From the IMG/VR virus record IMGVR_UViG_3300033141_004852, positions 1-64,000 of that record: a DNA stretch of 64,000 nt. One strand, given 5' to 3'. The notes under the pieces are model-generated. The model had not been told where the DNA came from. It was given only the letters and a program-made list of their open reading frames with translations, and searched no databases. Shown one piece after another: positions 6,990 to 31,154 of this stretch. Both the position numbers and the translations under genes were made by a program. Every line of letters starts with the position of its first letter. Position 1 is the first letter of the stretch. This DNA comes from a virus.

Positions 6990-8363
6990 CTACTCCTCCA
7001 ACAAGTACAACAGGTTCTCAAATTGTACCCAGAGAGCGTAGTTGCCCGCGGCGATGACATCTCCCTTCGTGTACTGTTCGTCCTTTTCCCCGCCAGCGAA
7101 GTTCAACGTCGCTGCACCGCTGTGATCGTACTTCCCCCACAACTCCACGACGATGCGGTCTCCCTCCTGGATATGGATGTCGTCTGCGAGCGCGGCCCCG
7201 TTCGCCTCCGCCCAGATGTACTCTGTGCCCGCGGAGTCCTGCGGGCTACCTTCGAGAAGCGTTGTGCTGTCATAATTCGCGGAGGAGAGAGTCGCTACCC
7301 GTCCCACACCCGGGCGCCAGATGTAAACGAAGGCACAGAGAGTCAAGCCCTGTGTCGCCAGCGCATCCTCGCAGCCACCCACGTCGCAGGTAGTACCACG
7401 GGGGAGAATCTGCTCCGCTAGAGGATAGCTAACGTAGGACCCCCAGGGGTCGTAGTGTGTGGAGCCGTCGCCGGTAACGCTCTGGCTGGGGATATACTGC
7501 CCGGGGAGTGTGCTCGTCAGACCCCCCAGCACCGGCGTAGTCTGCCCATAGGCAGTCTGCCCCGCCTCCGGCGAGGATGGGTCGATGTCAGCCGCGGTGA
7601 TACCAGTCGGCGCCGTTCCCCCCAGGTGAAGCCGGTAAGCGCGCGTGACCGTCGGAAACGCCACCTCCTGAATCGTCAACCGAGCGGGGAAGCGCGGGTG
7701 CTCCCCCCAGGGGAAGGGTTCCATCGGGAACTCCATCAGGCGACCGTAGATGAGATGCTCGTACTCCGCGTACACCTCCCCCAGCTCCGGTAGTGTGGAG
7801 GGGAAGTACACACGCCCCTCACTGGCGTCAACCGTCACATTGAAGGTATCCGTAGTCCCCGTCCGCCCACCATACTGGTAGATGACGGTGCCGTTGCGGT
7901 CATAGAGGACCAGCGATTGCTCCACGAAGGGCCACACAGCCGTGTAATAATAGCCGTTGCCGTCCGTCCACAACGGGTCGCGATCCCTCCTCCGCATTGA
8001 GCCCCCATAAGGCTCCGCCGAAGCGGGGGGGATGTAGATGCCGATGTTCTTCCCCTGGTCTTGGTAGAGACGCAGGCGTCGGACGAACTCCGCATCGAGT
8101 ACTTCGGGGAACTCAATGTCCCAGAGAATCCTCTGTATACGCCGCGCCGACCACGCGGTGGCCATGTAGAGATGACGTGCGGGGGTGATAAGTTTCCCGA
8201 ATCCACTTTGCATCTGTACGTACTCGGAGGTAGACTGCGCCGTCCCCGAAATCTGGCTTGGGTTGACAGGCAGGAGATAGCGGTCGCGGGTCAGCGAGGC
8301 GAAATCCGCGAAGCACGTGGGTGCAATTCTCCCCGGGTAGCGATTGGAACCCTTAGCCAACAT
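6990..8363 (-). CDS. Distal tail protein-like component
   Basis: This 457-residue protein lies directly after the tape measure gene, where siphoviruses place the distal tail (Dit-like) protein that joins the tube to the tip. It is beta-rich, and a central segment (about residues 190-240) with repeated FP motifs looks like the start of a second beta domain. I chose the ATG at 8363, with GGGGAGG ten bases upstream, over an ATG at 8393. The gene overlaps the tape measure gene by 11 bases. The assignment rests mainly on gene order. Confidence 0.62.
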   Translation of the reverse strand: MLAKGSNRYPGRIAPTCFADFASLTRDRYLLPVNPSQISGTAQSTSEYVQMQSGFGKLITPARHLYMATAWSARRIQRILWDIEFPEVLDAEFVRRLRLYQDQGKNIGIYIPPASAEPYGGSMRRRDRDPLWTDGNGYYYTAVWPFVEQSLVLYDRNGTVIYQYGGRTGTTDTFNVTVDASEGRVYFPSTLPELGEVYAEYEHLIYGRLMEFPMEPFPWGEHPRFPARLTIQEVAFPTVTRAYRLHLGGTAPTGITAADIDPSSPEAGQTAYGQTTPVLGGLTSTLPGQYIPSQSVTGDGSTHYDPWGSYVSYPLAEQILPRGTTCDVGGCEDALATQGLTLCAFVYIWRPGVGRVATLSSANYDSTTLLEGSPQDSAGTEYIWAEANGAALADDIHIQEGDRIVVELWGKYDHSGAATLNFAGGEKDEQYTKGDVIAAGNYALWVQFENLLYLLEE

Positions 8364-11300
8364 TGCCGATTTTCCTCCCCGAAGCCGTCTCAACTTCGAG
8401 ACGACGTGTCAATTCCCAATGTACCAGATTCGAGAGGCGGCGCGCATCCGTATGTGTGTACCCCGTCCCCTGGACGACGATGTTCAGACTCCCGATGACA
8501 GGTGCCGTCCGCCCCTCCCCAGAGAATCTATGCCAACGACTCATAGGCTGCCAAGTAGTCGTGGTCGGGGTGTATTCATAGGGGGTAATCTCCGCTCCAG
8601 CACCCCATGCAGGACCATAGGGGCCCCGTGCGAATCCAGCGTAGCCGAGAGCTCCGTAAAGAGGAGATACCGGCCACATGACATCCGGCGGCGTCCAGAT
8701 ACGCTCATACTGCTTCGGTGGCAACTGCTGGGTATCCTTCTTTTGCTTCTTCTTTCCAGCCAAACCCGCGAAAAAGCCTACAGCCGCACCAACAGGTCCC
8801 AAACTTGCTCCAGCGAGAGTCCCCAAGCTGTACCCAGCGAGGGCACCCGTCAGTGGATCCCCCGCTTGGTAGGCGCTGTAGACACCCAGGCCGGAAATGA
8901 CAGCCTTCCCCGCCTTCGTCTGGAAAAACCCCCGCTTTGAAGTCGCCGGAGCCCCCACAGCAGGGGCACCCTCCGCTGTAGCGGCGGTAGTTGCCTTCCG
9001 CGTCTCGGCAGTGTTCTGCACCGTCGCTATAGTATTCTCCGCCACCGCCCGCCCTAGGCGGGATATACTTTGTACCGCCAACCCCGCTAGGGGACCTACA
9101 ACAGTAGGTAGAGAAGTTATCTGCCCGCCTGCGGTCGCTGGAGGCGTGACCATGACGGCACCGCCGACTCCGGGGACAATACCTCCGCCGCTGAAAGTCG
9201 TGGCGGCGCTTTGGAATGCCTGCGTCAACGCCCCCAAAGCAGTGATGAGTTTCTCGCGCATGACCAACTCGCGCTCCCGCGAGGAGAGCTCGCGGCGTAT
9301 CTGAGTATCCATCATCGCAATACGAGGACCCAGGTCGGCCAAAGCCGCCTGCACGCGCTCGAATCCCGCGGCGATATTTGGCAACTTCTCCAACTGAGGA
9401 AGAGCGTACTGCCCAATACCAATCTGGGCAGCGAGTGCCTTCCCAGACTCGCGGCCGGCCGCGCGCTCCCGCGCCGCCATCAACTCCTCGAAGAAGGTCC
9501 CCATGTTCTCGCGGACAATGCGTTGCACCCACTCCTTGGTGATGTCGGCGAACATCTGGTGTACCGCCTGCCAGATGTCGCCCTCACCGCGGAATGCTTG
9601 TGTGATCGCGTCGGCGAAAGCGTCCGACATCCGCTCGATCCCCGCATACCACTCCTGGAGGAACCGCTCCGCATACCCTCGCAACTCATCGAAGTATTGG
9701 CGTCCGCGTTCGGTAGTTACCGGCCACTCCTGGAGCAGGCGCTGGAGTTCCTGCACGCGGTCGATAATGCGGTCGAACTCCGTGGGGAGATTCGCCCTCC
9801 GCATTTCTCCCGCTACCTTGAGTTGCCACTGCTCATAGTCCTGGCGGATTCTCGCCAAGGACTGCCATATTTGCAATTGTTCTGCAAGATTACCAGTTTC
9901 CTCGTAGCGTCGGCGGAGCTCCGCCGCCTGGGCTATAATGTCGTTCCCAGCGAAGTCAATCATAGCCATATTGTAGTCATGCTGGAGACGGAGAAGCTGC
10001 TCCCGGAGACTTACTTGCTCGCGGAGGACGGTCAACATCGCCCGCAGGTCCCCCACACGCTGTGCCTCCCGAAACTGCTCGTCGGCGATCTTCAGCATGG
10101 TCTGGTAGTCATCGACCTGGAGAGCATGAAACTCCCGATAATCGAGAACCAAATCACGTACCGTATCCCGAAATTGCTTGATAGCTTGTGTCGCTTGCAC
10201 CACGTTCTTCTGCGCGTCCAGGACTCGCATGGCGATGTCCCGCCAGTCATCTGACGACCCGCGGAGAGACTGGACGAGTTCCCACACAGTTTGTCCCCCA
10301 ACCCCGGGGATACTGCGGGCAATGTCCATCTCCGCACGGAGCCGTGCTTGGGCGGACTCCAGAGCCTGCTGGAGGAATCTGTATTGATCCATCGCGTACT
10401 TCCACCCAGCACCTGCCTGTGCCTGAGCAATCTGCTGCTCCAGCCGCATTTCCTCCTGGCGATAATCATGGAGTTTCTTCACATAATCTAGTTCGATCCG
10501 AAGAGTCTCCAGGATTTGGACCCGCGCCATGTACTCCACAGTCTGGGCGTCGGCGGTTTCCTTGCGGAGGCGCTCCATCTGCATCCGCAGGGCGTCGAGA
10601 CGCTGAGTCCGCTCTGCCTCGATAGCGGCGATACCACCCCGTGCCTGCTGCATAGCATAGAACCACTGGCGCCGGTAGGCGAGTGGGTAAGTTTCCTTGA
10701 AGAGGGTGCGCATCTGCTCCAAACGTGCGCGGGCATCGGCGAGCGCGGCCTTCGTCGCCGCGGAGATCCCCTTTGTCGCCATTGCGCGGTCGATTTCTTC
10801 CACAGCCTCCCGGCTGCGATCGGCCATGTCCTCCCAGCGTTGGGAAAACTGTTGAATGCGCGTGAACCACCGTCCGAGGACGGAGGCGTCTACTTGCTCC
10901 ATCGCCTGTCGGAGTTCGCGGGTGAGATTGAGGGCGCGTCGTACCAGGCGGTCGTAGGTTTGTACGCGCTTCCCCAGATTACCCAACGGGTCAGGCTCTG
11001 GTTCCGTCGGTTCGGGGATTCCCGCCTGCTCATGCTCCAGCTCGAGAATCAACAGGCGCGTCATCTCAATTTCAGCCTGGACTTGTTTTGTCTTCCCCGC
11101 GTACTCATCCAACTTTCCAAGTGCTTTCGCCAAATCTTGGGTGGCACCGTAGCTCTCTGCCCCAACCTTCTCCAAGGTATCTAGGAGATCTCGTGCCCCC
11201 CTCACCGTCTTCTCGATAGTATCCGGGAGTGGAGACTGACGTATACTCCATTCGGATTTCGGAGTGAAAGCACGTTTGACATCTTCAATTCGTTTGATTA

Positions 11301-13377
11301 CTGCTTTCTCCTGTGCCTCCACCGCGCGCTCTTGCTTTTGAAGGACACCCCGCAACTCCTGCTCTTTACCCTTGAGTGCCTGAATCTGCGCCTCGCGCAT
11401 CTTGTCCGTCATCTCCCCAATGCGAAGCACAGCCCGCGCTACTACCCGCTCGACTGCTTCCACCCCGGGGACGAAGGAATCCGTGAAAGCCAACGCGCTG
11501 TCCTTCGTGGCCTTCTGCAAGAGAATGAGAATCTGCCGTAGCTCCTCCTGCTTCTTCCCCGTCTTATCCGCGCCTTCCGAGACCTCCTTATACTGGTCGC
11601 GGAGTTCGTAGAGGAGATTTGCTCGACGGCGAAGACCCTCGATCTGAGTTGCGTACGCCTGCGCTTCCCTATCTTTGGCTGCTATCGTCGTCGCTTCAAT
11701 TTCCTGTACAGCCTTCGCCAACCGCTCGGCCTCATACGCAGCGCGATTGAACCAGCGGTCGGCAGTCTTCCAAACCGCCAACGCAATGGCTGCGGCTGCC
11801 AAAGCAACCCCAACTGGGCCCAGAGACAGGTATAGGCTGTGGAGTGCTGCTCGCACCCCCGTGATCGCTACGGTAGTCCCCGCCAAACTTACATTGAGTC
11901 TGGTAGCTACGACTTGCGCCCCTCCAATCGCGAGCATGGCAGCCCGCACGGCAACTGTGAGAGCCCTCGTACGGAACAACATAATCCCCAGAGGGACCGC
12001 CAACGCCGTAGCCTTCACCCCCACTACGTCGATTACCTGCACCAACTTGCGGAGAATCTCCAGCAGTCCCTTCAGGGTCGATTGCGTCTCGGAACTTACC
12101 GCCAACCCCTGCAATGCCGCCTTCAGGCGCCCGTAGCGCACCTGAATCGAATCCAGGAAGATGATGTTCTCCTTCAGCGCCGAGCCCTGACTCTCGTAGG
12201 CGATGGTCGTCGCCTCGATAATCGCCGGGAGGGAATCCAGCAGCGTGCGAAACTCCGTGACCCGACGGACACCGAATGCCTCCGCGATGGCCTGCTTCTG
12301 CACGTCGGTGAGCGTTACCCACTTCGCCGACAGCTGCGTCAGCACAGTCATCAGGTCGAGCATTTCCCCGTGCTGGCGGCGGATGAAAATCCCCACCTTC
12401 TCCAACTCGCGGATGTTCTTCTCCCGGAAGGTATAGGTGAAGAGAGTCCGCAGGGCGGTGCCGATCTGTGCCCCGGAGCGCTTCGTGCGCTCAATCAACA
12501 CCGTCACCATCGCACTGGCTTCCTGAATTGAGAGGCCGGCGTCAGCAGCCGTCCGCCCAAGACGAGCTACACCCTCGGCGATGTCGCGGGTCGTCGCAGC
12601 GTAGCGGTTCGACAACTCGTTCCAGGCATCAAGGGTTGCCATCGCTGTTGAAGCTTGGAGATCGAACTGGTTGAGCGCCGCAGTCAGATACCGAGTAGCA
12701 TCGACGGCGGACATCTCCGCGATGTTCTGCGCCAGGAGGGAGACGGTCGTGAGTTCCACGACCTCCTTAGCCCGATATCCCTGTCGTGCCCAGTCGCGCA
12801 TCCCATCGATCACGGCGGATATACTGGACCCATAGCGCTCGGCCATGTTCACCGCCGCGTCCGCCATCCCCTGAATGTCACCGACGTGGCCTTGATAGAC
12901 CTTCCGCAAACCAGTGAGAGCGAAGTCTACCTCGGTGATAGTCGTGACCGACTGCCGAAGCCCATTCAGCGCCCCATAGACGGCACCTGTAGCGATGGCC
13001 CACGTGGCGATCTTACCGATAGCGTGGTCGATGTCCTTACGGAGGCGTTGGTAGGCGGTAGCGGTGTCGTCGACAGATTTCCGATGTTTGTCCGCCGCAC
13101 GCTGTCCCCGCTCGGCTGCCCGGCGCTGCCGTTCGGCAGCACGCTCCCCCTGTACGGCAGCGCGTTGATACGCCTTCTCAATATCTTGGACTTGAAGCGG
13201 TGCCTGACGAGCCGCGGTCGCAGCCTGTGCTGCAATCCGCCCAGCAAGCCCGGCCGTAGTCTGCTGTACGCGGCGCGCAATTTGCCCCAGAGTCTGCTCC
13301 ACCCGTCGCAGATCCTGGGGACTGAAGCCGATACTCAGGACATAATCGTACTGACCTCCGCCAGCGCCTGCCGACAT
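8353..13377 (-). CDS. Tail tape measure protein
   Basis: The tape measure protein sets tail length and is probably ejected with the DNA. It is the largest gene in the window (1674 residues). Residues 20-120 form a charged coiled coil. A TP901-type tape measure core follows (about 130-400, including ITEVDFALTGLRKVY). Hydrophobic segments lie near 455-540. A very long coiled-coil region extends to about 1350, and a Gly/Ala/Thr-rich tail contains further hydrophobic stretches around 1545-1590. The start forms a TAATG overlap with the tail assembly chaperone frame. At about 1.5 angstrom per residue this length predicts a tail of roughly 250 nm. Confidence 0.95.
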   Translation of the reverse strand: MSAGAGGGQYDYVLSIGFSPQDLRRVEQTLGQIARRVQQTTAGLAGRIAAQAATAARQAPLQVQDIEKAYQRAAVQGERAAERQRRAAERGQRAADKHRKSVDDTATAYQRLRKDIDHAIGKIATWAIATGAVYGALNGLRQSVTTITEVDFALTGLRKVYQGHVGDIQGMADAAVNMAERYGSSISAVIDGMRDWARQGYRAKEVVELTTVSLLAQNIAEMSAVDATRYLTAALNQFDLQASTAMATLDAWNELSNRYAATTRDIAEGVARLGRTAADAGLSIQEASAMVTVLIERTKRSGAQIGTALRTLFTYTFREKNIRELEKVGIFIRRQHGEMLDLMTVLTQLSAKWVTLTDVQKQAIAEAFGVRRVTEFRTLLDSLPAIIEATTIAYESQGSALKENIIFLDSIQVRYGRLKAALQGLAVSSETQSTLKGLLEILRKLVQVIDVVGVKATALAVPLGIMLFRTRALTVAVRAAMLAIGGAQVVATRLNVSLAGTTVAITGVRAALHSLYLSLGPVGVALAAAAIALAVWKTADRWFNRAAYEAERLAKAVQEIEATTIAAKDREAQAYATQIEGLRRRANLLYELRDQYKEVSEGADKTGKKQEELRQILILLQKATKDSALAFTDSFVPGVEAVERVVARAVLRIGEMTDKMREAQIQALKGKEQELRGVLQKQERAVEAQEKAVIKRIEDVKRAFTPKSEWSIRQSPLPDTIEKTVRGARDLLDTLEKVGAESYGATQDLAKALGKLDEYAGKTKQVQAEIEMTRLLILELEHEQAGIPEPTEPEPDPLGNLGKRVQTYDRLVRRALNLTRELRQAMEQVDASVLGRWFTRIQQFSQRWEDMADRSREAVEEIDRAMATKGISAATKAALADARARLEQMRTLFKETYPLAYRRQWFYAMQQARGGIAAIEAERTQRLDALRMQMERLRKETADAQTVEYMARVQILETLRIELDYVKKLHDYRQEEMRLEQQIAQAQAGAGWKYAMDQYRFLQQALESAQARLRAEMDIARSIPGVGGQTVWELVQSLRGSSDDWRDIAMRVLDAQKNVVQATQAIKQFRDTVRDLVLDYREFHALQVDDYQTMLKIADEQFREAQRVGDLRAMLTVLREQVSLREQLLRLQHDYNMAMIDFAGNDIIAQAAELRRRYEETGNLAEQLQIWQSLARIRQDYEQWQLKVAGEMRRANLPTEFDRIIDRVQELQRLLQEWPVTTERGRQYFDELRGYAERFLQEWYAGIERMSDAFADAITQAFRGEGDIWQAVHQMFADITKEWVQRIVRENMGTFFEELMAARERAAGRESGKALAAQIGIGQYALPQLEKLPNIAAGFERVQAALADLGPRIAMMDTQIRRELSSRERELVMREKLITALGALTQAFQSAATTFSGGGIVPGVGGAVMVTPPATAGGQITSLPTVVGPLAGLAVQSISRLGRAVAENTIATVQNTAETRKATTAATAEGAPAVGAPATSKRGFFQTKAGKAVISGLGVYSAYQAGDPLTGALAGYSLGTLAGASLGPVGAAVGFFAGLAGKKKQKKDTQQLPPKQYERIWTPPDVMWPVSPLYGALGYAGFARGPYGPAWGAGAEITPYEYTPTTTTWQPMSRWHRFSGEGRTAPVIGSLNIVVQGTGYTHTDARRLSNLVHWELTRRLEVETASGRKIGNVG

Positions 13378-13802
13378 TAGGAGAGCTTCAGCCTCCTCTC
13401 TCGACGCCGGAGATACTCACTCATCCCCGGTACGTCATTGCGCATCAAACACTCACCATAGACTTGTTGTTCCACGCGGTCCCAGAGATCGAAGCGCGGC
13501 TGAATATCCAGCAACGCCGCCCATTCAATCTCATAATAGCCGCATTGTAGCCCTTTCTCCTCCTCGGCACCCTTACTGCGGTTTACCCACAGCATGTAGT
13601 CATTGAAGTAATTCTCGATCACCCATCGAGGTGGTCTTGGGAACTTCATCGATGTTGTCTGACGCAGTGTCTCCGCCACGTCGCTTAGGAACCACGCTCT
13701 CCTGACCAATGCCATCGTCCGCGCGGGCACCTCCGTCAGCGGGTACTGCTCCCACCCGGGGATTTTCCCCTGCTTCCTCGCCAGCGAACAGAGACTCTGC
13801 AC
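13377..13802 (-). CDS. Tail assembly chaperone, frameshift extension (T part)
   Basis: This frame overlaps the 3' end of the preceding chaperone gene by about 200 bases and ends against the tape measure start. It is open from about 13853. No ribosome binding site precedes its first possible start (GTG at 13802), so independent translation is unlikely. Its sequence (KIPGWEQYPLTE near the beginning) looks like the T half of lambda G-GT-type tail chaperones. Switching from the upstream frame needs a +1 shift, and the codon CCC at 13809-13807, followed by TTT, allows it: tRNA-Pro can re-pair on CCT. The fusion would be about 479 residues. Confidence 0.7.
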   Translation of the reverse strand: MQSLCSLARKQGKIPGWEQYPLTEVPARTMALVRRAWFLSDVAETLRQTTSMKFPRPPRWVIENYFNDYMLWVNRSKGAEEEKGLQCGYYEIEWAALLDIQPRFDLWDRVEQQVYGECLMRNDVPGMSEYLRRRERRLKLS

Positions 13803-14817
13803 GAAAGGGGTTTTCTGCCGCTTTCTGTACTCGATCTCGCATTTCCTGTGAGATCAACCCGGCGAAGCCCGCCACACTGCGGGCAACGCGAATCAGTAGC
13901 GCCTCGTCGCCGCGGAACTTCGCAAGCATGGCATCCCATGCCTTCTGTGGGTCGCGTAGAGCATCCACTACGTTGTGGATACCGGCGTCGCTCAAGTCGA
14001 AGAAGTAGCGGCTCCGGTCGTTGAGGTCGCGGGCTGCTGCATAGAGGATCAGCGCCAGAGCACGGTCGGACCCGATAGTGATAGCGGGTTCCATCGCCCC
14101 CGCGAAGCGGAGACGCTTCCACAGGAGCTCCTCATCGATTTCCCGCAACTGCAACCGCCGAGCGTTGAGTTCCCTGCGCATGACCTCCTCCGAGCGCTTC
14201 CGCAACGCTTCGGGGTCGAGTTCCTCCGCCGGTGTCGTCTGACCAATGTCCGCGATGAGCATCTGCTGCGCCGTCTCGCGAATCGCCTGCGTCTCCGTCT
14301 GCAAGAGCATCTCCACCAACAGGAGCCGCAGGATTTCCTTCCGCAAACGCTCGTCGGCCCAATCGTCCGGGTAGCCTTCCGGGAATGGTAGTTTCTCCGG
14401 CGCGTCCTCATTGTCATCCAGTACCTCGGGGGTAGCCAAGTGCCAGAGTCTCTCGAACGCGGTCTTTAGCTCCAACCGCGCATAGAGTTCATAAGACGCC
14501 TCTATCTCGCGGAAATCATCCTCCATCGGGATCCGGCGCCGCCCATCCTCCGCCTCCTGGAGGAACTGGGTACGGAGATTACGAATCAGGACTCTCCGCG
14601 TGGCATCGAGGGCGCTCGTTACCGTCTCCGGCAACGCGACCAGACGCAGGCGCAAAACCTGCTTCGGTCCCAGGGGGATCTCCTCGATGATGTCCGAGAA
14701 AGAGGGATCGAAAGCCTCGATAGTGGTCAAGGCTGTTGCCTGCGCCTCCGTAGCACCATTTGTGTATGGGGTGTTGGGGACCTTCCCCGCACGCGGGTCT
14801 TCTCCCTGAGTAGCCAT
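13600..14817 (-). CDS. Tail assembly chaperone (G part)
   Basis: This gene lies between the tail tube and tape measure genes, the conserved place of the tail assembly chaperone that recruits tail tube subunits around the tape measure. The 405-residue product is long for this role (about 100-200 residues is usual). It is strongly helical and rich in Arg and Glu. Its C-terminal tail after about residue 340 is low-complexity and would be replaced by frameshifting. The start at 14817 has AAGGAGG at good spacing. A second gene in another frame overlaps its end, as expected for G/GT pairs. Confidence 0.72.
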   Translation of the reverse strand: MATQGEDPRAGKVPNTPYTNGATEAQATALTTIEAFDPSFSDIIEEIPLGPKQVLRLRLVALPETVTSALDATRRVLIRNLRTQFLQEAEDGRRRIPMEDDFREIEASYELYARLELKTAFERLWHLATPEVLDDNEDAPEKLPFPEGYPDDWADERLRKEILRLLLVEMLLQTETQAIRETAQQMLIADIGQTTPAEELDPEALRKRSEEVMRRELNARRLQLREIDEELLWKRLRFAGAMEPAITIGSDRALALILYAAARDLNDRSRYFFDLSDAGIHNVVDALRDPQKAWDAMLAKFRGDEALLIRVARSVAGFAGLISQEMRDRVQKAAENPFRAESLFAGEEAGENPRVGAVPADGGARADDGIGQESVVPKRRGGDTASDNIDEVPKTTSMGDRELLQ

Positions 14818-14836
14818 TATGGGCCTCCTTCTTATG

Positions 14837-14874
14837 GGTCTAGGGGACAACACCGGAATGCTGCCCCCTAGACC
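14837..14874 (-). terminator. Hairpin between tail tube and chaperone genes
   Basis: A perfect 10 bp inverted repeat (GGTCTAGGGG and CCCCTAGACC) with an 18-base loop lies in the 83-base gap after the tail tube gene. There is no U-run. It could act as a partial terminator or an mRNA-stabilising 3' end, favouring tail tube production over downstream tail genes. Confidence 0.5.
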
Positions 14875-14900: not shown

Positions 14901-15713
14901 TTAGTCCGCCGGATAACGTGCGTCGTGAGTCTGCAAGCTGCTGGAATTGTGGGCGAAGATCACCCAGGCATCGACGGTGCCACTGAAGCCAGCATCCTGC
15001 ACGTCCTGATCTGCGATCGAGATCAGACCGCCGCTGCCCGATGACTGCACGTTGGTATCATCTACCTCCACCGCCGCCGTCTCGCGGTCGCGGCCGGTGC
15101 CGTTCTGAATCTCCAGGTAGACCGCGCGTACATCGGAGAGGTCGGCCAACGCCAACGGGACCGGATCGTCCCACGTGCCTTCCCAACGCCCAGTAGCGCC
15201 ATTGCTCGACAGAGATGCCACGCGCTTGGACATGAACTGCGCGCCCCTCAAACACTCCATCGGGACGTCAGCCTGTCCGGCGAGTGTTCGCACCGCCTCG
15301 GCCCCAGGATCGCCCTTGGCGCCGCTGAGCGTTGCCGCCCAGTAGCCCAAGTACGTACTCCCGTTTGCATACCCAGTCAATGCCGGGTTGAGTGTCTCCA
15401 CCACAGCGAACAGGTAGGGGACGGACGTGCCCGCTCGCGCGATGACGGGCGCCTCCGCATTACGGGTGGTGAACCCAGACAGCAGCTCGTTCACGAGCGA
15501 AATGTTCGGGTTCTCGATGATGTCCACCGACTGCGGGCCCGGTCCGTATGCAACGATCTGGACGCCGGATGGATCACCGTAGACCTCGCGGGTGACCTCC
15601 TTTCGAGTCGGCTCGAAATCCAAGCCTCCCGCAGCGTTGCCAACGAGGACGCCGTTCACCCACAGACGCTTCTGCTTGGTGAACATTCCCCCCGCTCTTG
15701 TTACCAGAGACAA
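14901..15713 (-). CDS. Major tail protein (tail tube)
   Basis: This 270-residue protein is the likely tail tube subunit. It is beta-rich with few charged helices, has a length usual for siphovirus tube proteins, and sits immediately before the chaperone and tape measure genes. It starts with TTG at 15713. GGAGG lies nine bases upstream, and an ATG at 15720 is out of frame. A strong hairpin follows the gene. The next gene upstream is a glycosyltransferase, so the tube or another tail protein may be a glycosylation target (inference). Confidence 0.78.
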   Translation of the reverse strand: MSLVTRAGGMFTKQKRLWVNGVLVGNAAGGLDFEPTRKEVTREVYGDPSGVQIVAYGPGPQSVDIIENPNISLVNELLSGFTTRNAEAPVIARAGTSVPYLFAVVETLNPALTGYANGSTYLGYWAATLSGAKGDPGAEAVRTLAGQADVPMECLRGAQFMSKRVASLSSNGATGRWEGTWDDPVPLALADLSDVRAVYLEIQNGTGRDRETAAVEVDDTNVQSSGSGGLISIADQDVQDAGFSGTVDAWVIFAHNSSSLQTHDARYPAD

Positions 15714-15737: not shown

Positions 15738-16487
15738 TTATTCCGTAGGTTGACGCAGCCGTGGTACATCCCGCAACGACAGCCTGGGGTCGTTGTAGGG
15801 GTGTTTCCAAGCGGCTGCTCGGATTTCCTCGGGGTGCCAGTGGGGCTGACACCCCCATTTGGTGATGTAAAACGACCGATTGGCCTGGAAAGCCTTGGGG
15901 GGCACTACCTGCTCCCGTCCCATATCGGCAGGTGGGTGGAACTGGGTCTGGCCTCCCAGGTGGTACATCGGCGCCGCTGTCGTCAGCAGCATCTCACCCC
16001 CGGAGAGCACCACGCGGGTGTAGTAGTCATTGTCCTCGAAGTACCCGGGGAAGAAGTTCTCGTCAAACTCCCCCACGAGCTCCCACGTGCGCTTAGGCAG
16101 GATGAAGAAGGACATATCAGGCTCGCGATCCCGTACCTCGTAGGGTGGGCGGATGTCGGAGCAGAGAAACGACGGGATCGAAATCCCTGTGTCGCGGACA
16201 TTGTACGCCGTCGCCACCAAGGGTCTGCGCTCACGCCAGAATGCCACGAGGCGGTCGATGGTCTCCTCGTGGCAGAGTACGTCATCATTGGCAACGATTA
16301 CCGCATCCACCCCCGCGGCGAACATCGCGCGGCATCCAAGATTCCAACTGGCGGCGATTGACCGCCGCGCCCGCGAGTTGTCGACAACGAAGATACGGAG
16401 GCGGTGGTGCTTACTCGTCCAGGTACTCAATGACTGCGCGAAGCCAGACCAATTGTTCAGCACGGGTACGACGATGCCGATGTTCAC
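15738..16487 (-). CDS. Glycosyltransferase family 2 (GT-A fold)
   Basis: This is a cytoplasmic sugar transferase using a nucleotide sugar. Residues 3-9 form the first beta strand (GIVVPVL). FVVDNS at 33-38 and ANDDV at 66-70 (the DxD-type metal site) are standard GT2 elements, and FEDND at 150-154 supplies the probable catalytic acid region. The start is GTG at 16487, with GAGGAG upstream and a 4-base overlap with the previous gene. It forms a cassette with a GT4 enzyme and a deoxyribosyltransferase-like protein inside the tail module. The target could be a virion protein or the host wall. Confidence 0.87.
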   Translation of the reverse strand: MNIGIVVPVLNNWSGFAQSLSTWTSKHHRLRIFVVDNSRARRSIAASWNLGCRAMFAAGVDAVIVANDDVLCHEETIDRLVAFWRERRPLVATAYNVRDTGISIPSFLCSDIRPPYEVRDREPDMSFFILPKRTWELVGEFDENFFPGYFEDNDYYTRVVLSGGEMLLTTAAPMYHLGGQTQFHPPADMGREQVVPPKAFQANRSFYITKWGCQPHWHPEEIRAAAWKHPYNDPRLSLRDVPRLRQPTE

Positions 16488-16906
16488 GATGGCTTCTCCT
16501 CTACAGGTTTTCGCTCGCGGAGCCACGCGACGAGGAAACTTAGTGCTGCATTGAAATCGGGGAGGACGGCGGCACAATGGGATGTTATCCAGCCTCCCGT
16601 GGGCGTTGTCTGCGTCACCCCCACGACGCCTTTCTCCAGAAAGTACCCCCACATCATGTGGGTCAGCGACTCAGCAGCTCCATTATCCAAGTCAACGAGG
16701 AGCACATCGCACTCCGCGATTTCCCGCTTGTCGAGCTGGACCGCCGCCGCTGGATGACGGGTGTAGAAATCACGACTGGGAAGATAGTCGGCGGATGTGA
16801 CGACGGTAGGGTCCACCCCGGCGGCGCGGAGGGCGCTCTCGACCCGCACCGCCACGGCGTCCTCCTCGGGGAATCCCGACAACAATACGCGAATAGGCTG
16901 ACTCAT
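16484..16906 (-). CDS. Nucleoside 2-deoxyribosyltransferase-like protein
   Basis: This 140-residue protein has a Rossmann-like layout. It has an N-terminal strand (RVLLSGF) and, at about residues 66-93, the pattern CDVLLVDLDNGAAES followed by a small-residue helix and GVVGV. This resembles the D-G/E motif and following strand of nucleoside 2-deoxyribosyltransferases. The family cleaves or exchanges bases on deoxyribonucleosides, but phage members also work on nucleotide sugars or are uncharacterised. It lies between two glycosyltransferases with coupled overlaps, so a role in making a sugar donor is possible. The start has GGGAGGAG upstream. Confidence 0.5.
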   Translation of the reverse strand: MSQPIRVLLSGFPEEDAVAVRVESALRAAGVDPTVVTSADYLPSRDFYTRHPAAAVQLDKREIAECDVLLVDLDNGAAESLTHMMWGYFLEKGVVGVTQTTPTGGWITSHCAAVLPDFNAALSFLVAWLRERKPVEEKPS

Positions 16907-17093
16907 CTATCTGCTCCTCCCTCTCTCGGTTACGCGGCGCATCGCGTCGAGCATCGCGGCGGCGTCTGGCAATTTGGTGAGTGCGACGTCGTTGTAGGGC
17001 CGAATCCTCGGAGCAATCTGTGCAGAGGAAGACTCCCCCGTGGAGCCGCCCAGCCCGCACTCTCCCACAGTCTTCGCATTCCCCGATTTGCAT
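16907..17093 (-). other. Nested zinc-ribbon reading frame in the GT4 3' end
   Basis: An out-of-frame ATG at 17093 follows AAAGGAGGAACG, one of the best ribosome binding sites in the area. It opens a frame beginning MQIGECEDC and continuing to CTDC about 26 residues later: two CxxC pairs, as in the many small zinc ribbons of this phage. After that the convincing coding sequence (KLPDAAAML) is in the GT4 frame, one base away. Removing one G near the second CxxC would join the two into a zinc-ribbon protein of about 61 residues ending at 16907. It may be a mutated or wrongly read gene. Confidence 0.45.
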
Positions 17094-18433
17094 CGTTCCT
17101 CCTTTGCTCGCGCGGCGGTAAGAATAAGATCAACCCAGTCGTCGGCGATGGTGTCCCAATCCCAATGTTTCCGCGCATACTGAACTCCACAACGACCTAA
17201 GCGGACACGCCACTCGGGATCCTGGTACAACCGCTCCAGCTTCTGGAGTAGTTGCCGCCGGTCTCCCCGAGGGCGCTCAATGCAATTTCGCACCCCCGTC
17301 ACGCCAAATTGCGGCCGGCACCGCAACCACGGGTGCGAGAAATAGTCGGTGATGCCCGCGTAGTCCACCGCGAGAGCGGGAATCCCCGCAGATTGCGCCT
17401 CCAGATGCGGGAGCCCACACCCCTCCCCATGATGCCAGAGTACGTGAACATCCAATGCCGCGTAGTAGTGATTGAGGATCTCGTGGGGGATCGTCTTCCC
17501 GGATTCCAAATCGGGGAAGCGGATCACGCGCTCGATTGGCATGTGAAGCGGCAGCAACCGCTCCAGATCCCACCCGTCCAACTTCCCGGGGTAGAAGCGC
17601 GTCCAGGGGAAGAAGTACACATCTTCGTGGCGACGCATAAACTCCCCCACCGCGCGGGCGATACCGGGCCAGTCCTTCCGCGATTGGTTCGTCGCCACCA
17701 TCCCGATGACGAACCCCTTCTGTACCTTCTCCGGGAAGCCAAAGGACTTCCGCGCATGTGCCTGCGGATATGGGTGGAAGACGCGGAAGTCCACGCCGTG
17801 GGGAATCACGCGGGTCCTCGCGAGGGCGTCATCCCGCACATCCTCGGGGAGACACCCTGCATAGAGGTCTCGCGCCCATTTCCCGTAGAGGACAGTCCAA
17901 TGCTGGCGGTACATCAACTCCTGCCAACTCAGGCGGTGGAGTTTCCCCTCCTCGTCCTTGATAATCTGGTGGGGGAGGGTGCCGTCTGCGACCATGCCGT
18001 CGATGGGTTGGTAGTAGATGAACTGCGGGCCCAGGCTATCCTGGAACGCACGGGAGCGCACGAGCCATGCCGTCATCCACAAGTCAGCGTTGGTAATCAC
18101 CACATCAAATTGGAACCGGCGAATCCAATCGTGGAGACAGTCTTGTCCCCAGGGGTCTTCGCCCACGACCTCGTAAGATGGGATACCCCCCGGGTGGCTG
18201 AAGTCGATGTCCCACGTGTGCTTTGCCACCGTGATCTCATTCAACCACCGAAGTTTCTCCGCGCTATCAGGCATCGTCGCCGCAGCCTGCACCGGATGGA
18301 AGCCGATAGCCAGCTGCCGGATCTCGAATCTACCCGTCCTCGCCAAACGAGAAAGAAGATTTCGTGCTACGGTGGCAAAACCCGTCCCGAGTGCGTACCA
18401 ATCTCCGACGTACCCTACGCGAATGGGTGTCAT
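16907..18433 (-). CDS. Glycosyltransferase family 4-like (GT-B fold)
   Basis: This 508-residue enzyme has the two-domain GT-B layout. VGYVGDW lies at the start, IPHGVDFRVF near residue 215 opens the second domain, and HGEGCGLPHLEAQ near 345 is the E-x7-E nucleotide-sugar site. The expected fold ends near residue 445. The last 60 residues are an unusual tail overlapping a second, nested reading frame with its own ribosome binding site (see 16907-17093). The start at 18433 has an ATGA overlap and GGAG upstream. It probably glycosylates a phage structural or host surface component together with the adjacent GT2. Confidence 0.86.
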   Translation of the reverse strand: MTPIRVGYVGDWYALGTGFATVARNLLSRLARTGRFEIRQLAIGFHPVQAAATMPDSAEKLRWLNEITVAKHTWDIDFSHPGGIPSYEVVGEDPWGQDCLHDWIRRFQFDVVITNADLWMTAWLVRSRAFQDSLGPQFIYYQPIDGMVADGTLPHQIIKDEEGKLHRLSWQELMYRQHWTVLYGKWARDLYAGCLPEDVRDDALARTRVIPHGVDFRVFHPYPQAHARKSFGFPEKVQKGFVIGMVATNQSRKDWPGIARAVGEFMRRHEDVYFFPWTRFYPGKLDGWDLERLLPLHMPIERVIRFPDLESGKTIPHEILNHYYAALDVHVLWHHGEGCGLPHLEAQSAGIPALAVDYAGITDYFSHPWLRCRPQFGVTGVRNCIERPRGDRRQLLQKLERLYQDPEWRVRLGRCGVQYARKHWDWDTIADDWVDLILTAARAKEERCKSGNAKTVGECGLGGSTGESSSAQIAPRIRPYNDVALTKLPDAAAMLDAMRRVTERGRSR

Positions 18434-19020
18434 GTTGACTTCTCCGCTTTCCAGGTTTCGAGGCTGAAGTTGACAACTATCCAATCTTCTGTCCCCCGCG
18501 CCGCTGATACCTCCACGTGGGGGACGACGATGACATCGCTAATGTATGCCTGTGCGATAACGTCCTCGCCGCGGCTCACCGGCGGGTCCCCGGACACAGA
18601 GTACCAGAAGTAGATGGGAAGCGCGCCCTTGGAGGTGAGAAACGCCGTCAACCAATCCTGAATACGTTGACGCGTGAGGAGATTCTGCTCCCCCATCTTG
18701 ACGTTGATCTCCCAGAAACTCTGCTCCTTCGTAGCACCGCCGTACAACGTGTCGACGGCTGGCATCGCCTGGCGGGGGAACCAAGTGAGATAGGGCACCT
18801 TCGTCGCATCGTCCCGCAAATCAATTGTGGGGAGCTCCCGCAGAGTAGTATACGCAGGCCGCACGAGGATGCCCGGCATTACCTCGTCGAGCGTCACATA
18901 CTCGATCTCTCCCGTCGTGCGGTTGTATACGGGGGCAGTCTCCGTCTGGAGAGCATAGCCCAGGCTCTGATTGATGTCCTCCGTGAGCCCCACATTGTCC
19001 TCGGCACCAGTAGCAGCCAT
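18430..19020 (-). CDS. Possible tail terminator / tail completion protein
   Basis: This 196-residue protein lies after the head-tail connector genes and before the tail module, where siphoviruses carry the tail terminator. The sequence alternates strands and helices and ends in a beta-rich half. I chose the ATG at 19020, with GGGAGG twelve bases upstream. The assignment comes only from gene order and size. The tail tube gene is not immediately next because three sugar-related genes intervene. Confidence 0.5.
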   Translation of the reverse strand: MAATGAEDNVGLTEDINQSLGYALQTETAPVYNRTTGEIEYVTLDEVMPGILVRPAYTTLRELPTIDLRDDATKVPYLTWFPRQAMPAVDTLYGGATKEQSFWEINVKMGEQNLLTRQRIQDWLTAFLTSKGALPIYFWYSVSGDPPVSRGEDVIAQAYISDVIVVPHVEVSAARGTEDWIVVNFSLETWKAEKST

Positions 19021-19021
19021 G

Positions 19022-19795
19022 CTAAGATAGACCTCCCACAATTTCGAGGGCTTGTCCGAACAACTCCGGCCCCAGTGTTTGCACCATCATCTGCGACCGC
19101 CGGAAGGGAGCGGCACCCCACGGCTCTACGGAGATAAGCCCCACGGTATTCATTCCCAGGAAACGGCGCCGACGCGGCCACATTCCCGCACTCACCGCCA
19201 GCCCCGGGTTCCTCCCCCCAACACGCTGAAGTGCCCCCTGATCGCGGAAGGCACCAGGGTGGCGGACACGCTGTGCAAATGTCAACTGGTAATCCTTACG
19301 GAACCACACAAAGCGCATCCACTGACGGTCCGGTCGGGGACCATACTCGTGAGGGGATGTTCCGTACTCTACCATTCTCCAGATAGGGGGACCGTCCTGG
19401 CGAATCAACTCATCTTGGTAGCGGGGGCTGTCGCTCCCCCACCCGCGGCGGTAGTACATCGGGAGCAGCCGATCCAGTACCGCGCGGTTACCATAGAGGG
19501 CACGCCAGACCCTACCTGTATTGGAAATCCGCCCCATCTCCGGGAGCATCAGCACGTCGGCAAAGTACATCCGGTCGCTTTCAGTCGGATGCCCCGTAGG
19601 CGGCCAGCGAAAACCTCCCGCTACTGACTTAGCGCGGGCAGCCGTCCAACATCCGGGGACACCTCGGCCAGGAGTTGGATCTCGGTACATCCCCAACGCC
19701 AAACTCGCCGCCGCCCGCGCTGCCACCCGCAGGCGGTCACGCACCCGATTGAAACGATCACGACCGTGGCGGGTAAATTGTACCAGCGGCGGCAT
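19022..19795 (-). CDS. Head-tail connection / neck protein, unassigned
   Basis: This 257-residue basic protein is rich in Arg and aromatic residues (MYFADVLMLPEMG, YYRRGWG). It occupies the neck region of the morphogenesis operon, next to a protein of the size of HK97 gp10-like tail completion proteins, and may itself be such a component. The start at 19795 is preceded by GGGAGGAATGATAG. I see no catalytic motif. Confidence 0.5.
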   Translation of the reverse strand: MPPLVQFTRHGRDRFNRVRDRLRVAARAAASLALGMYRDPTPGRGVPGCWTAARAKSVAGGFRWPPTGHPTESDRMYFADVLMLPEMGRISNTGRVWRALYGNRAVLDRLLPMYYRRGWGSDSPRYQDELIRQDGPPIWRMVEYGTSPHEYGPRPDRQWMRFVWFRKDYQLTFAQRVRHPGAFRDQGALQRVGGRNPGLAVSAGMWPRRRRFLGMNTVGLISVEPWGAAPFRRSQMMVQTLGPELFGQALEIVGGLS

Positions 19796-21808: not shown

Positions 21809-23047
21809 TCAGGATGCGTACTTGATACGCACCACGTTCGGCTGCTGGTAGGCAACGCTGGTGAAGAGAACGTTCTTCATCAGCACGAATACATCGTACA
21901 CTCGCGGCCCACGGGTCTCCGTCCGCAGGTACTGCAAGTTATCGACGACATACGCCTGACCAGACTGCCCGAGATCCTCCGGCGCCGGCCACGTGTAGAG
22001 CCACGCGGCACCGCGCGGTGCCAGCATCTTCGCAGGCGGGTCCAACAGCGCCCAAGCATACTTGGTGCTGCCGGTGTTGTCGATGGTGTTATTCGGCTTC
22101 GGGATCGGGAACTGAATACCGAACAACTGGAAGTACGCGTCTTCCCCATCGCGCAGAACCTGCGCGCGGAAGGACTCCGGCAGAGCCGGGAAGTTCGAGC
22201 CGGTCTCGACGGCATCCCACATCGTCATCAGCCCGTCGGGGTCGATGTCGATGCGAGCGATGCGCCGATTGAGCTTCAGTGCATGACCCCCCAACGTCTT
22301 GAAGAAGTTGAGGTCGATCTTGTCGTTGTCCGATGCGTCCAGATCATTTGTGTCGGGGACACTGGCGGACACCACCCGACTGGAGATCCAGTCGAAGGCG
22401 TTCGACCGCATTCCCGAAGCCACGACCTGGTTGGTCACCGCAGTCACCGCGTCGGCGTCGATCTGCTCGGACATCGCAATCGCGGCCACATCGGCCACGT
22501 AGGCGATGTCCTCCAGGTAGCGGTCGGGATACAGCGGGTCCCACCGCGGAATCCAGATCTCGGGGATCGTGTAGACGATAGGATCACCCAAGGTGAATAC
22601 GCCATCACGATTCCGATGGATCTCCACCCAGTTTCCACCGGGTTCCGCGAGCTTGTACACCTTCGGGAGCTTCACTCCCTGTACCCGGTATGCAAGCTGC
22701 TCGCCGTACCCGACCTCCTGCGCGTCGCAGTAGTCGAGTGCCCAACTCTGAGCCGTGATCCGCTGGTGAATGCGGTTGATGATCTGCTGGCGGATCCGCG
22801 AGGGGACGGGAGCCTGGTCCGGCAAGGCACCACGCCCCTGGGTCTGGAACTCGCCGAAGATTCGCTTGAGTTCCTCAATCCGCTGCTCTCGCGAGGCTTG
22901 GCTGTTGGGTGCCTCCAGGGCCTTCACCGCACGCTCGTACAAAGCCTGGTTACAGGCGAGTACGCGCCGCGGCGAACGCAGGAGGGACTGCACTTGGTCC
23001 CGACTTGAATGGGCCGGGATAATCGGAGCGGCTGAAATCGCAGGCAT
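21809..23047 (-). CDS. Major capsid protein
   Basis: This 412-residue protein is the likely major head protein. It follows protease, scaffold and decoration genes and precedes the connector cluster. It has helical charged N-terminal sequence followed by mixed alpha/beta sequence (IWIPRWDPLYPDRYLED near residue 160) and a beta-rich C-terminus, all usual for capsid shells of this size. The start at 23047 has AAGGAGG upstream. It is flanked by two hairpins, consistent with a highly expressed gene. It could be proteolytically trimmed, since a prohead protease gene is present. Confidence 0.82.
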   Translation of the reverse strand: MPAISAAPIIPAHSSRDQVQSLLRSPRRVLACNQALYERAVKALEAPNSQASREQRIEELKRIFGEFQTQGRGALPDQAPVPSRIRQQIINRIHQRITAQSWALDYCDAQEVGYGEQLAYRVQGVKLPKVYKLAEPGGNWVEIHRNRDGVFTLGDPIVYTIPEIWIPRWDPLYPDRYLEDIAYVADVAAIAMSEQIDADAVTAVTNQVVASGMRSNAFDWISSRVVSASVPDTNDLDASDNDKIDLNFFKTLGGHALKLNRRIARIDIDPDGLMTMWDAVETGSNFPALPESFRAQVLRDGEDAYFQLFGIQFPIPKPNNTIDNTGSTKYAWALLDPPAKMLAPRGAAWLYTWPAPEDLGQSGQAYVVDNLQYLRTETRGPRVYDVFVLMKNVLFTSVAYQQPNVVRIKYAS

Positions 23048-23078
23048 CTTATCCCAACACCTCCTTTCCTCAAACAAT

Positions 23079-30727: not shown

Positions 30728-31154
30728 CCGGCACCTCCTCTACTCGGTAGTAAATCTGCTTCAACCTCGCTTGTGCTACCACCTGTTCAATTCGACATCC
30801 CTTGGAATCACCCCACCCGGGAAGAAACAACACAGCATCGGAACGATACAGCCACGCAATATCTGCCGGAAGCACGCGGTCGTAATCCGCCCACCACTCC
30901 AACTCCGCCCCGTACAGGGCCGTTACGTGCGGACAGTACACCGCCCAACCCTTACGAGATACCTCGAAGAAAGCAGCCACAGCCGCCGCAACGTTCCGTT
31001 CGAGAATCGCCCGCCGACACGCTGCATCCGCAGGCGGGCTAATCGGCCCCGCCAAGTACAATGTAGGTATCTCCAGAGCCTGCTTACCGTACATCTCCGC
31101 GAGATCCCAAATATGATCGTCCGTGCCCTTGGGAACTACGATGTTATCACTCAT
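30687..31154 (-). CDS. DUF4406 / nucleoside deoxyribosyltransferase-like protein
   Basis: This 155-residue protein has YLAGPIS at residues 33-39, the typical first strand and loop of the DUF4406 and deoxyribosyltransferase superfamily. GDSKGCRIEQVVA about 85 residues later matches the second motif (SKG...E). Members act on, or are predicted to act on, nucleosides or nucleotides. It lies with dCMP-deaminase-like and DUF1599-like genes just upstream of the terminase, which supports a role in nucleotide metabolism. The start at 31154 has GGAGG upstream and overlaps the previous gene by eight bases. Confidence 0.7.
   Translation of the reverse strand: MSDNIVVPKGTDDHIWDLAEMYGKQALEIPTLYLAGPISPPADAACRRAILERNVAAAVAAFFEVSRKGWAVYCPHVTALYGAELEWWADYDRVLPADIAWLYRSDAVLFLPGWGDSKGCRIEQVVAQARLKQIYYRVEEVPDAAEFQSHSHGEG

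Follow-up and report, generated by a model that had tools for sequence, protein, structure and literature searches.

A GT4–GT2 glycosyltransferase cassette in the structural operon of a phage, with a probable role in virion glycosylation

The structural operon of a phage represented by a 92,603-base (92.6-kb) virus record contains a compact, translationally coupled cassette that encodes a GT4 glycosyltransferase, a small middle protein without a recognised family and a GT2-type glycosyltransferase. We consider it probable that this cassette is a late-expressed module for glycosylating the virion, working with sugar donors of the host and acting most likely on the tail tube or the capsid protein. 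Its placement in the structural operon, the coupling of its genes, the predicted solubility of its enzymes, the recurrence of the arrangement in unrelated phages and the precedent set by mycobacteriophages all support this reading. Genes can lie in a late operon without acting on the products of adjoining genes, and several alternative roles are weighed below. Our analysis centers on bases 1-64000 of the record, referred to here as the window; the features discussed are collected in Table 1.

Table 1. Cassette genes, their surroundings and related features (window positions unless marked as record positions)
Feature	Position	Strand	Basis or context
GT4 (GT-B fold) glycosyltransferase, 508 aa	18433..16907	-	ATG start; PF00534, phrog_2170, 3oy2 profile match, codon statistics
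Middle protein, 140 aa	16906..16484	-	without recognised family, predicted alpha/beta; coding by codon statistics
GT2-type (GT-A) glycosyltransferase, 249 aa	16487..15738	-	GTG start; phrog_29879; relatives directly 3' of GT4 in many phage loci
Possible small zinc-ribbon ORF, 107 aa, CxxC-x14-CxxC	17093..16770	-	ATG 17093 within GT4 3' end, different frame
Putative tail terminator	18430..19041	-	gene order only
Putative tail tube protein	14901..15713	-	gene order only; directly before chaperone pair and tape measure
Putative tail assembly chaperone pair, two ORFs	13377..14853	-	ORF layout; 203-nt overlap, different frames
Tape measure protein	8353..13377	-	phrog_4211, 2.6e-76
Putative major capsid protein	21809..23077	-	gene order only
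DUF4406 protein	30747-31061	-	upstream of terminase gene
Second glycan operon, eight overlapping genes	record 84171-91074 (84.2-91.1 kb)		outside the window

An earlier note on this DNA had described three genes here and had claimed that all of them are translationally coupled. Both statements hold. The genes lie on the minus strand within the structural operon, are transcribed in the order GT4, middle protein, GT2, and are joined at every boundary. At the start of the cassette, the TGA of the preceding gene overlaps the GT4 start codon in an ATGA; the GT4 stop codon, a TAG, is followed without a gap by the ATG of the middle gene, whose own stop codon overlaps the GTG of the GT2 gene in a GTGA. 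A gap of 24 nt that contains a strong ribosome-binding site separates the GT2 gene from the putative tube gene. Codon statistics trained on the other minus-strand genes support all three reading frames, and base composition shows no shift across the cassette.

Profile searches bear out the GT4 identity that the same note had given and lend support to the GT2 one. The GT4 protein matches PF00534 at 4.8e-6, with a score of 26.6 bits above the Pfam family cut-off of 26.4, and its match to phrog_2170 (2.7e-22) spans residues 34-454. A profile built from three phage GT4s recovers solved GT-B enzymes, the best of which is the chlorovirus enzyme B736L (3oy2, E 2.5e-13). Like the window GT4, B736L is a GT-B enzyme encoded by a virus, though by one that infects algae, and its acceptor is described as unresolved (PMC9614988). 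The GT2-type protein matches phrog_29879 clearly (8.7e-13), and its match to PF00535 (0.0034, 17.8 bits) falls below the cut-off of 23.3. Among nine proteins tested, none contains a segment hydrophobic enough to span a membrane (19-residue windows, mean hydropathy >1.6). The GT4 and the GT2 of the cassette are predicted to be soluble cytoplasmic enzymes.

The middle protein did not live up to the label 'deoxyribosyltransferase-like' that it had been given. It has no match in Pfam or NCBIfam and none at a meaningful E-value in the PDB, and its marginal PHROG match (E 0.044) is to a family of unknown function. A scan of the whole record with PF05014, the nucleoside 2-deoxyribosyltransferase family, gave no match at E 10. 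The structure prediction that the earlier note had called for, run on the single sequence, shows an alpha/beta pattern at low confidence (pLDDT 56.5); nothing in the PDB passed E <= 0.001 in a fold search with this model, and the matches listed include no deoxyribosyltransferase. Upstream of the terminase gene, the window encodes a DUF4406 protein, which we take to be the fold class meant by the label, and this protein has no detectable similarity to the middle protein. The deoxyribosyltransferase label is therefore unsupported, although a distant kinship in fold may exist, and the suggestion that this protein prepares an unusual sugar donor finds no backing in the sequence-profile or fold searches.

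A fourth cassette gene is possible. The homologous core of the GT4 stops near position 17096, and a Shine-Dalgarno sequence, AAAGGAGG, lies just 5' of the start codon of an overlapping zinc-ribbon ORF at position 17093. Exact AAGGAGG-ATG sites are rare, with 10 in the whole window including this one, and no other start codon that we tested in the structural region has both a site of this kind and paired CxxC motifs. Codon statistics for the overlap are ambiguous: the GT4 frame looks coding-like in its second half, and neither frame does in its first half. We found no counterpart of this ORF adjoining other related GT4 genes.

The cassette was said to interrupt the path from tail terminator to tail tube, and this position follows, as an inference, from gene order. 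The genes are arranged as is usual in long-tailed phages. The tape measure is identified by a strong profile match, the two overlapping ORFs that resemble a chaperone pair lie where expected, and so does a weak Neck1/tail-completion match (E 0.26) in the gene two upstream of GT4. The proteins that flank the cassette are named by order only: the putative terminator and tube match no relative in sequence, nor does the putative major capsid protein, and a structure model of the putative tube was unsuccessful (pLDDT 34). Compared with isolate phages, the terminase, capsid, tube and terminator gave no match. Profile-profile comparison of the window's structural proteins with alignments of tubes, terminators, capsids, portals, proteases and adaptors from the survey described below yielded nothing above threshold, save a partial terminase signal. 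The frame relation of the two chaperone-like ORFs suits a +1 or -2 shift, not the common -1.

No close relatives of the phage turned up in IMG/VR, where the GT4, the middle protein and the capsid, tube and tape measure proteins served as queries, or in GTDB genomes, where the tape measure and the middle protein did. Similar tape measures occur in Bacillus, Lysinibacillus and Mammaliicoccus phages, which makes a host from the Bacillota plausible.

Our survey covered 84 phage loci that encode a related GT4, of which 80 came from IMG/VR through a three-sequence GT4 alignment query and four from isolate phages; structural genes and glycosyltransferases were assigned with iterated profiles. The nearest upstream structural gene is the major capsid protein in 33 of the 84 loci and the tail terminator in 18, in a sample that is not neutral because it was picked by similarity to a query with two capsid-adjacent GT4s. 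Recognised structural genes are absent nearby in 16 of the 84. PHROG independently named most of the survey terminators tested, all of the tubes tested and many of the capsid proteins upstream of GT4s. All ten terminator-type loci in which both flanks are present carry the GT4 and a second glycosyltransferase between terminator and tube. This second enzyme is GT2 in two loci and GT34-like in eight, all eight from environmental phages (L014, L017, L021, L022, L043, L049, L054 and L073). Some survey loci carry nucleotide-sugar epimerases, methyltransferases or heptose-pathway enzymes downstream. Inspected for acceptor signatures, the C-termini of capsid and tube proteins show no clear difference between capsid-type and terminator-type loci. 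As judged from these loci, a glycosyltransferase cassette at the terminator-tube junction is not unique to the window phage.

A maximum-likelihood tree built from 83 GT4s places the 18 terminator-position enzymes in a single clade with support 100/100, and the terminator-position label requires one change on the tree, against a mean of 15 when labels are shuffled. The window GT4 falls outside this clade, nearest to the lineage of S-CBS4 and S-EIVl, on a long branch (2.7) that makes its placement unsure. In gene order, with flanks named by order only, the window would fit the environmental terminator-GT4-GT-tube cassettes; its GT4 lies outside their clade. If the names of the window terminator and tube are correct, two unrelated GT4 lineages occupy the same junction, and the window lineage appears to have reached it independently.

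Close parallels exist in isolate phages. Synechococcus phage S-CBS4, Microcystis phage Mae-JY09 and Pontimonas phage phiPsal1 encode a GT4-GT2 pair in the same order and likewise in the structural operon. Their pairs share about 24-31% identity with the window enzymes and are found downstream of portal or capsid genes; in phiPsal1 and S-CBS4 a methyltransferase accompanies the pair, and none of the three has a counterpart of the middle protein. The search for the same gene order that the earlier note had proposed thus succeeded in part: a GT4 with a second glycosyltransferase recurs beside capsid and tube genes, but the three-gene order with the middle protein does not recur in these three phages.

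The functional precedent comes from mycobacteriophages. Where PMC12363180 and PMC12619734 cite Freeman 2023, it is for glycans on the capsid and tail tube of Che8, Corndog and Myrna. Corndog encodes an O-methyltransferase and three glycosyltransferases between portal and protease (PMC4351075). Its gp35-gp38 resemble the window cassette as adjacent glycosyltransferase genes in the structural operon. The Che8 genes gp108-gp110 are also adjacent, but they lie at the right genome end, outside the structural operon, and encode GT2-like or other glycosyltransferases without a GT4; gp108 appears, from its sequence, to have a methyltransferase-like half. Che8 gp108-110 show no detectable homology to the window GT4, and the GT4 profile does not match them; the GT2 profile hits gp108/gp109 at 1e-9 to 1e-10, which amounts to similarity with the window GT2 at the level of the superfamily only. 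In cluster J, as in the window, several predicted glycosyltransferases break the structural gene order (PMC3706429); there, a glycosyltransferase-rich insert of 8-10 genes follows the capsid gene and precedes the connector genes, in contrast to the compact cassette at the putative terminator-tube junction of the window. Virion glycosylation itself is known from the mycobacteriophages, and what looks new here, on comparison of the genes, is the pairing of enzymes, the junction, the added unknown protein and the second operon.

These observations suggest the following model. The GT4 and the GT2 would share a transcript with the head-tail proteins and would act in the cytoplasm, one after the other, during virion assembly. 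Drawing on nucleotide-sugar donors of the host, they would place sugars sequentially on a virion protein, for which the tail tube and the capsid are the likeliest candidates. We infer the virion-protein acceptor and its identity, as well as the sugars and the biological benefit. The earlier proposal that a virion structural protein is modified is accordingly carried by placement, coupling, soluble enzymes, recurrence beside capsid and tube genes and the mycobacteriophage precedent; its acceptor, and the masking or adsorption role that the note had suggested, are conjectural. No PF01370-type nucleotide-sugar epimerase was found in the record, and the donors therefore probably come from the host.

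The phage has more glycan-related genes beyond the window. The second operon encodes, in order, a GT2, a methyltransferase, a PF13524 GT-B enzyme, a weak GT4-like protein, a GT4, a sulfatase-fold enzyme, a GT2 and a methyltransferase, that is, two GT2s, three GT-B or GT4-like proteins, two methyltransferases and one sulfatase-fold enzyme. Together with the cassette, the phage thus encodes about seven glycosyltransferase-like proteins. The second operon may extend or methylate the glycan, or may serve another acceptor. Elsewhere in the record (75103-77727), a DNA polymerase A protein carries a fused N-terminal uracil-DNA glycosylase domain.

Phage glycosyltransferases are well known from serotype conversion, and the enzymes might instead modify an envelope or wall polysaccharide of the host, blocking superinfection or changing the surface type, with the operon location just providing late expression. 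A second glycosyltransferase operon with methyltransferases and a sulfatase-fold enzyme would suit such a role, as would lysogeny, which is possible given an integrase at record 65658-66233 (PF00589, 3.9e-18) that suggests a temperate phage. Serotype-conversion (gtr) systems, however, combine a membrane-associated glycosyltransferase with a flippase, whereas the nine proteins tested lack any segment of membrane strength and we saw no flippase. The recurrence of the arrangement beside capsid and tube genes also speaks against a role at the host surface. In lysogens, late structural operons are as a rule not expressed; because of this and the lack of membrane segments in the tested proteins, we regard modification of the host surface as distinctly unlikely, despite the integrase.

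Improbable, too, is that the cassette is moron-like cargo without a functional tie to the structural genes, and that the terminator-tube junction is merely a site where insertions are tolerated. In line with this idea, unrelated, long-branch GT4s hold the same junction, the partner glycosyltransferase varies between GT2 and GT34-like, and the glycosyltransferase genes of cluster J have been described among the non-structural interruptions of the structural arm (PMC3706429). Against it stand an unshifted base composition, translational coupling that runs through the cassette, and terminator-position GT4s that form one long-kept clade, not scattered insertions. Very improbable is that the enzymes add sugars to modified bases in the phage DNA as a shield against host nucleases. 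Some viruses do encode glycosyltransferases that decorate DNA (Pyle 2024, cited in PMC12619734), and the phage encodes DNA methylases and a deaminase-like protein. The cassette, however, sits in the structural operon, not in the replication region, and such a role is less likely because the record, possibly an incomplete one, yielded no thymidylate-synthase-type enzyme (PF00303 or PF02511) to make a hydroxymethylated base.

Glycosylation of a virion protein by the cassette thus remains our preferred reading. A bolder version of it, which we offer as speculation and think unlikely as a whole, is that the terminator-tube junction is a dedicated niche for tube glycosylation that has been filled at least twice independently, that the second operon helps to build a multi-sugar, methylated glycan on the tube, and that the middle and zinc-ribbon proteins are accessory factors.

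Direct experimental support for virion glycosylation in phages comes from few phages, mainly mycobacteriophages. That a GT4 and a partner glycosyltransferase lie by capsid genes, and separately by tube genes, in dozens of uncultured phages suggests that virion glycosylation is far commoner. The arrangement also makes a testable prediction, namely that one can read from the cassette's position which virion protein carries the modification. This would, if true, have consequences for how phages encounter antibodies, for their adsorption and for their persistence.
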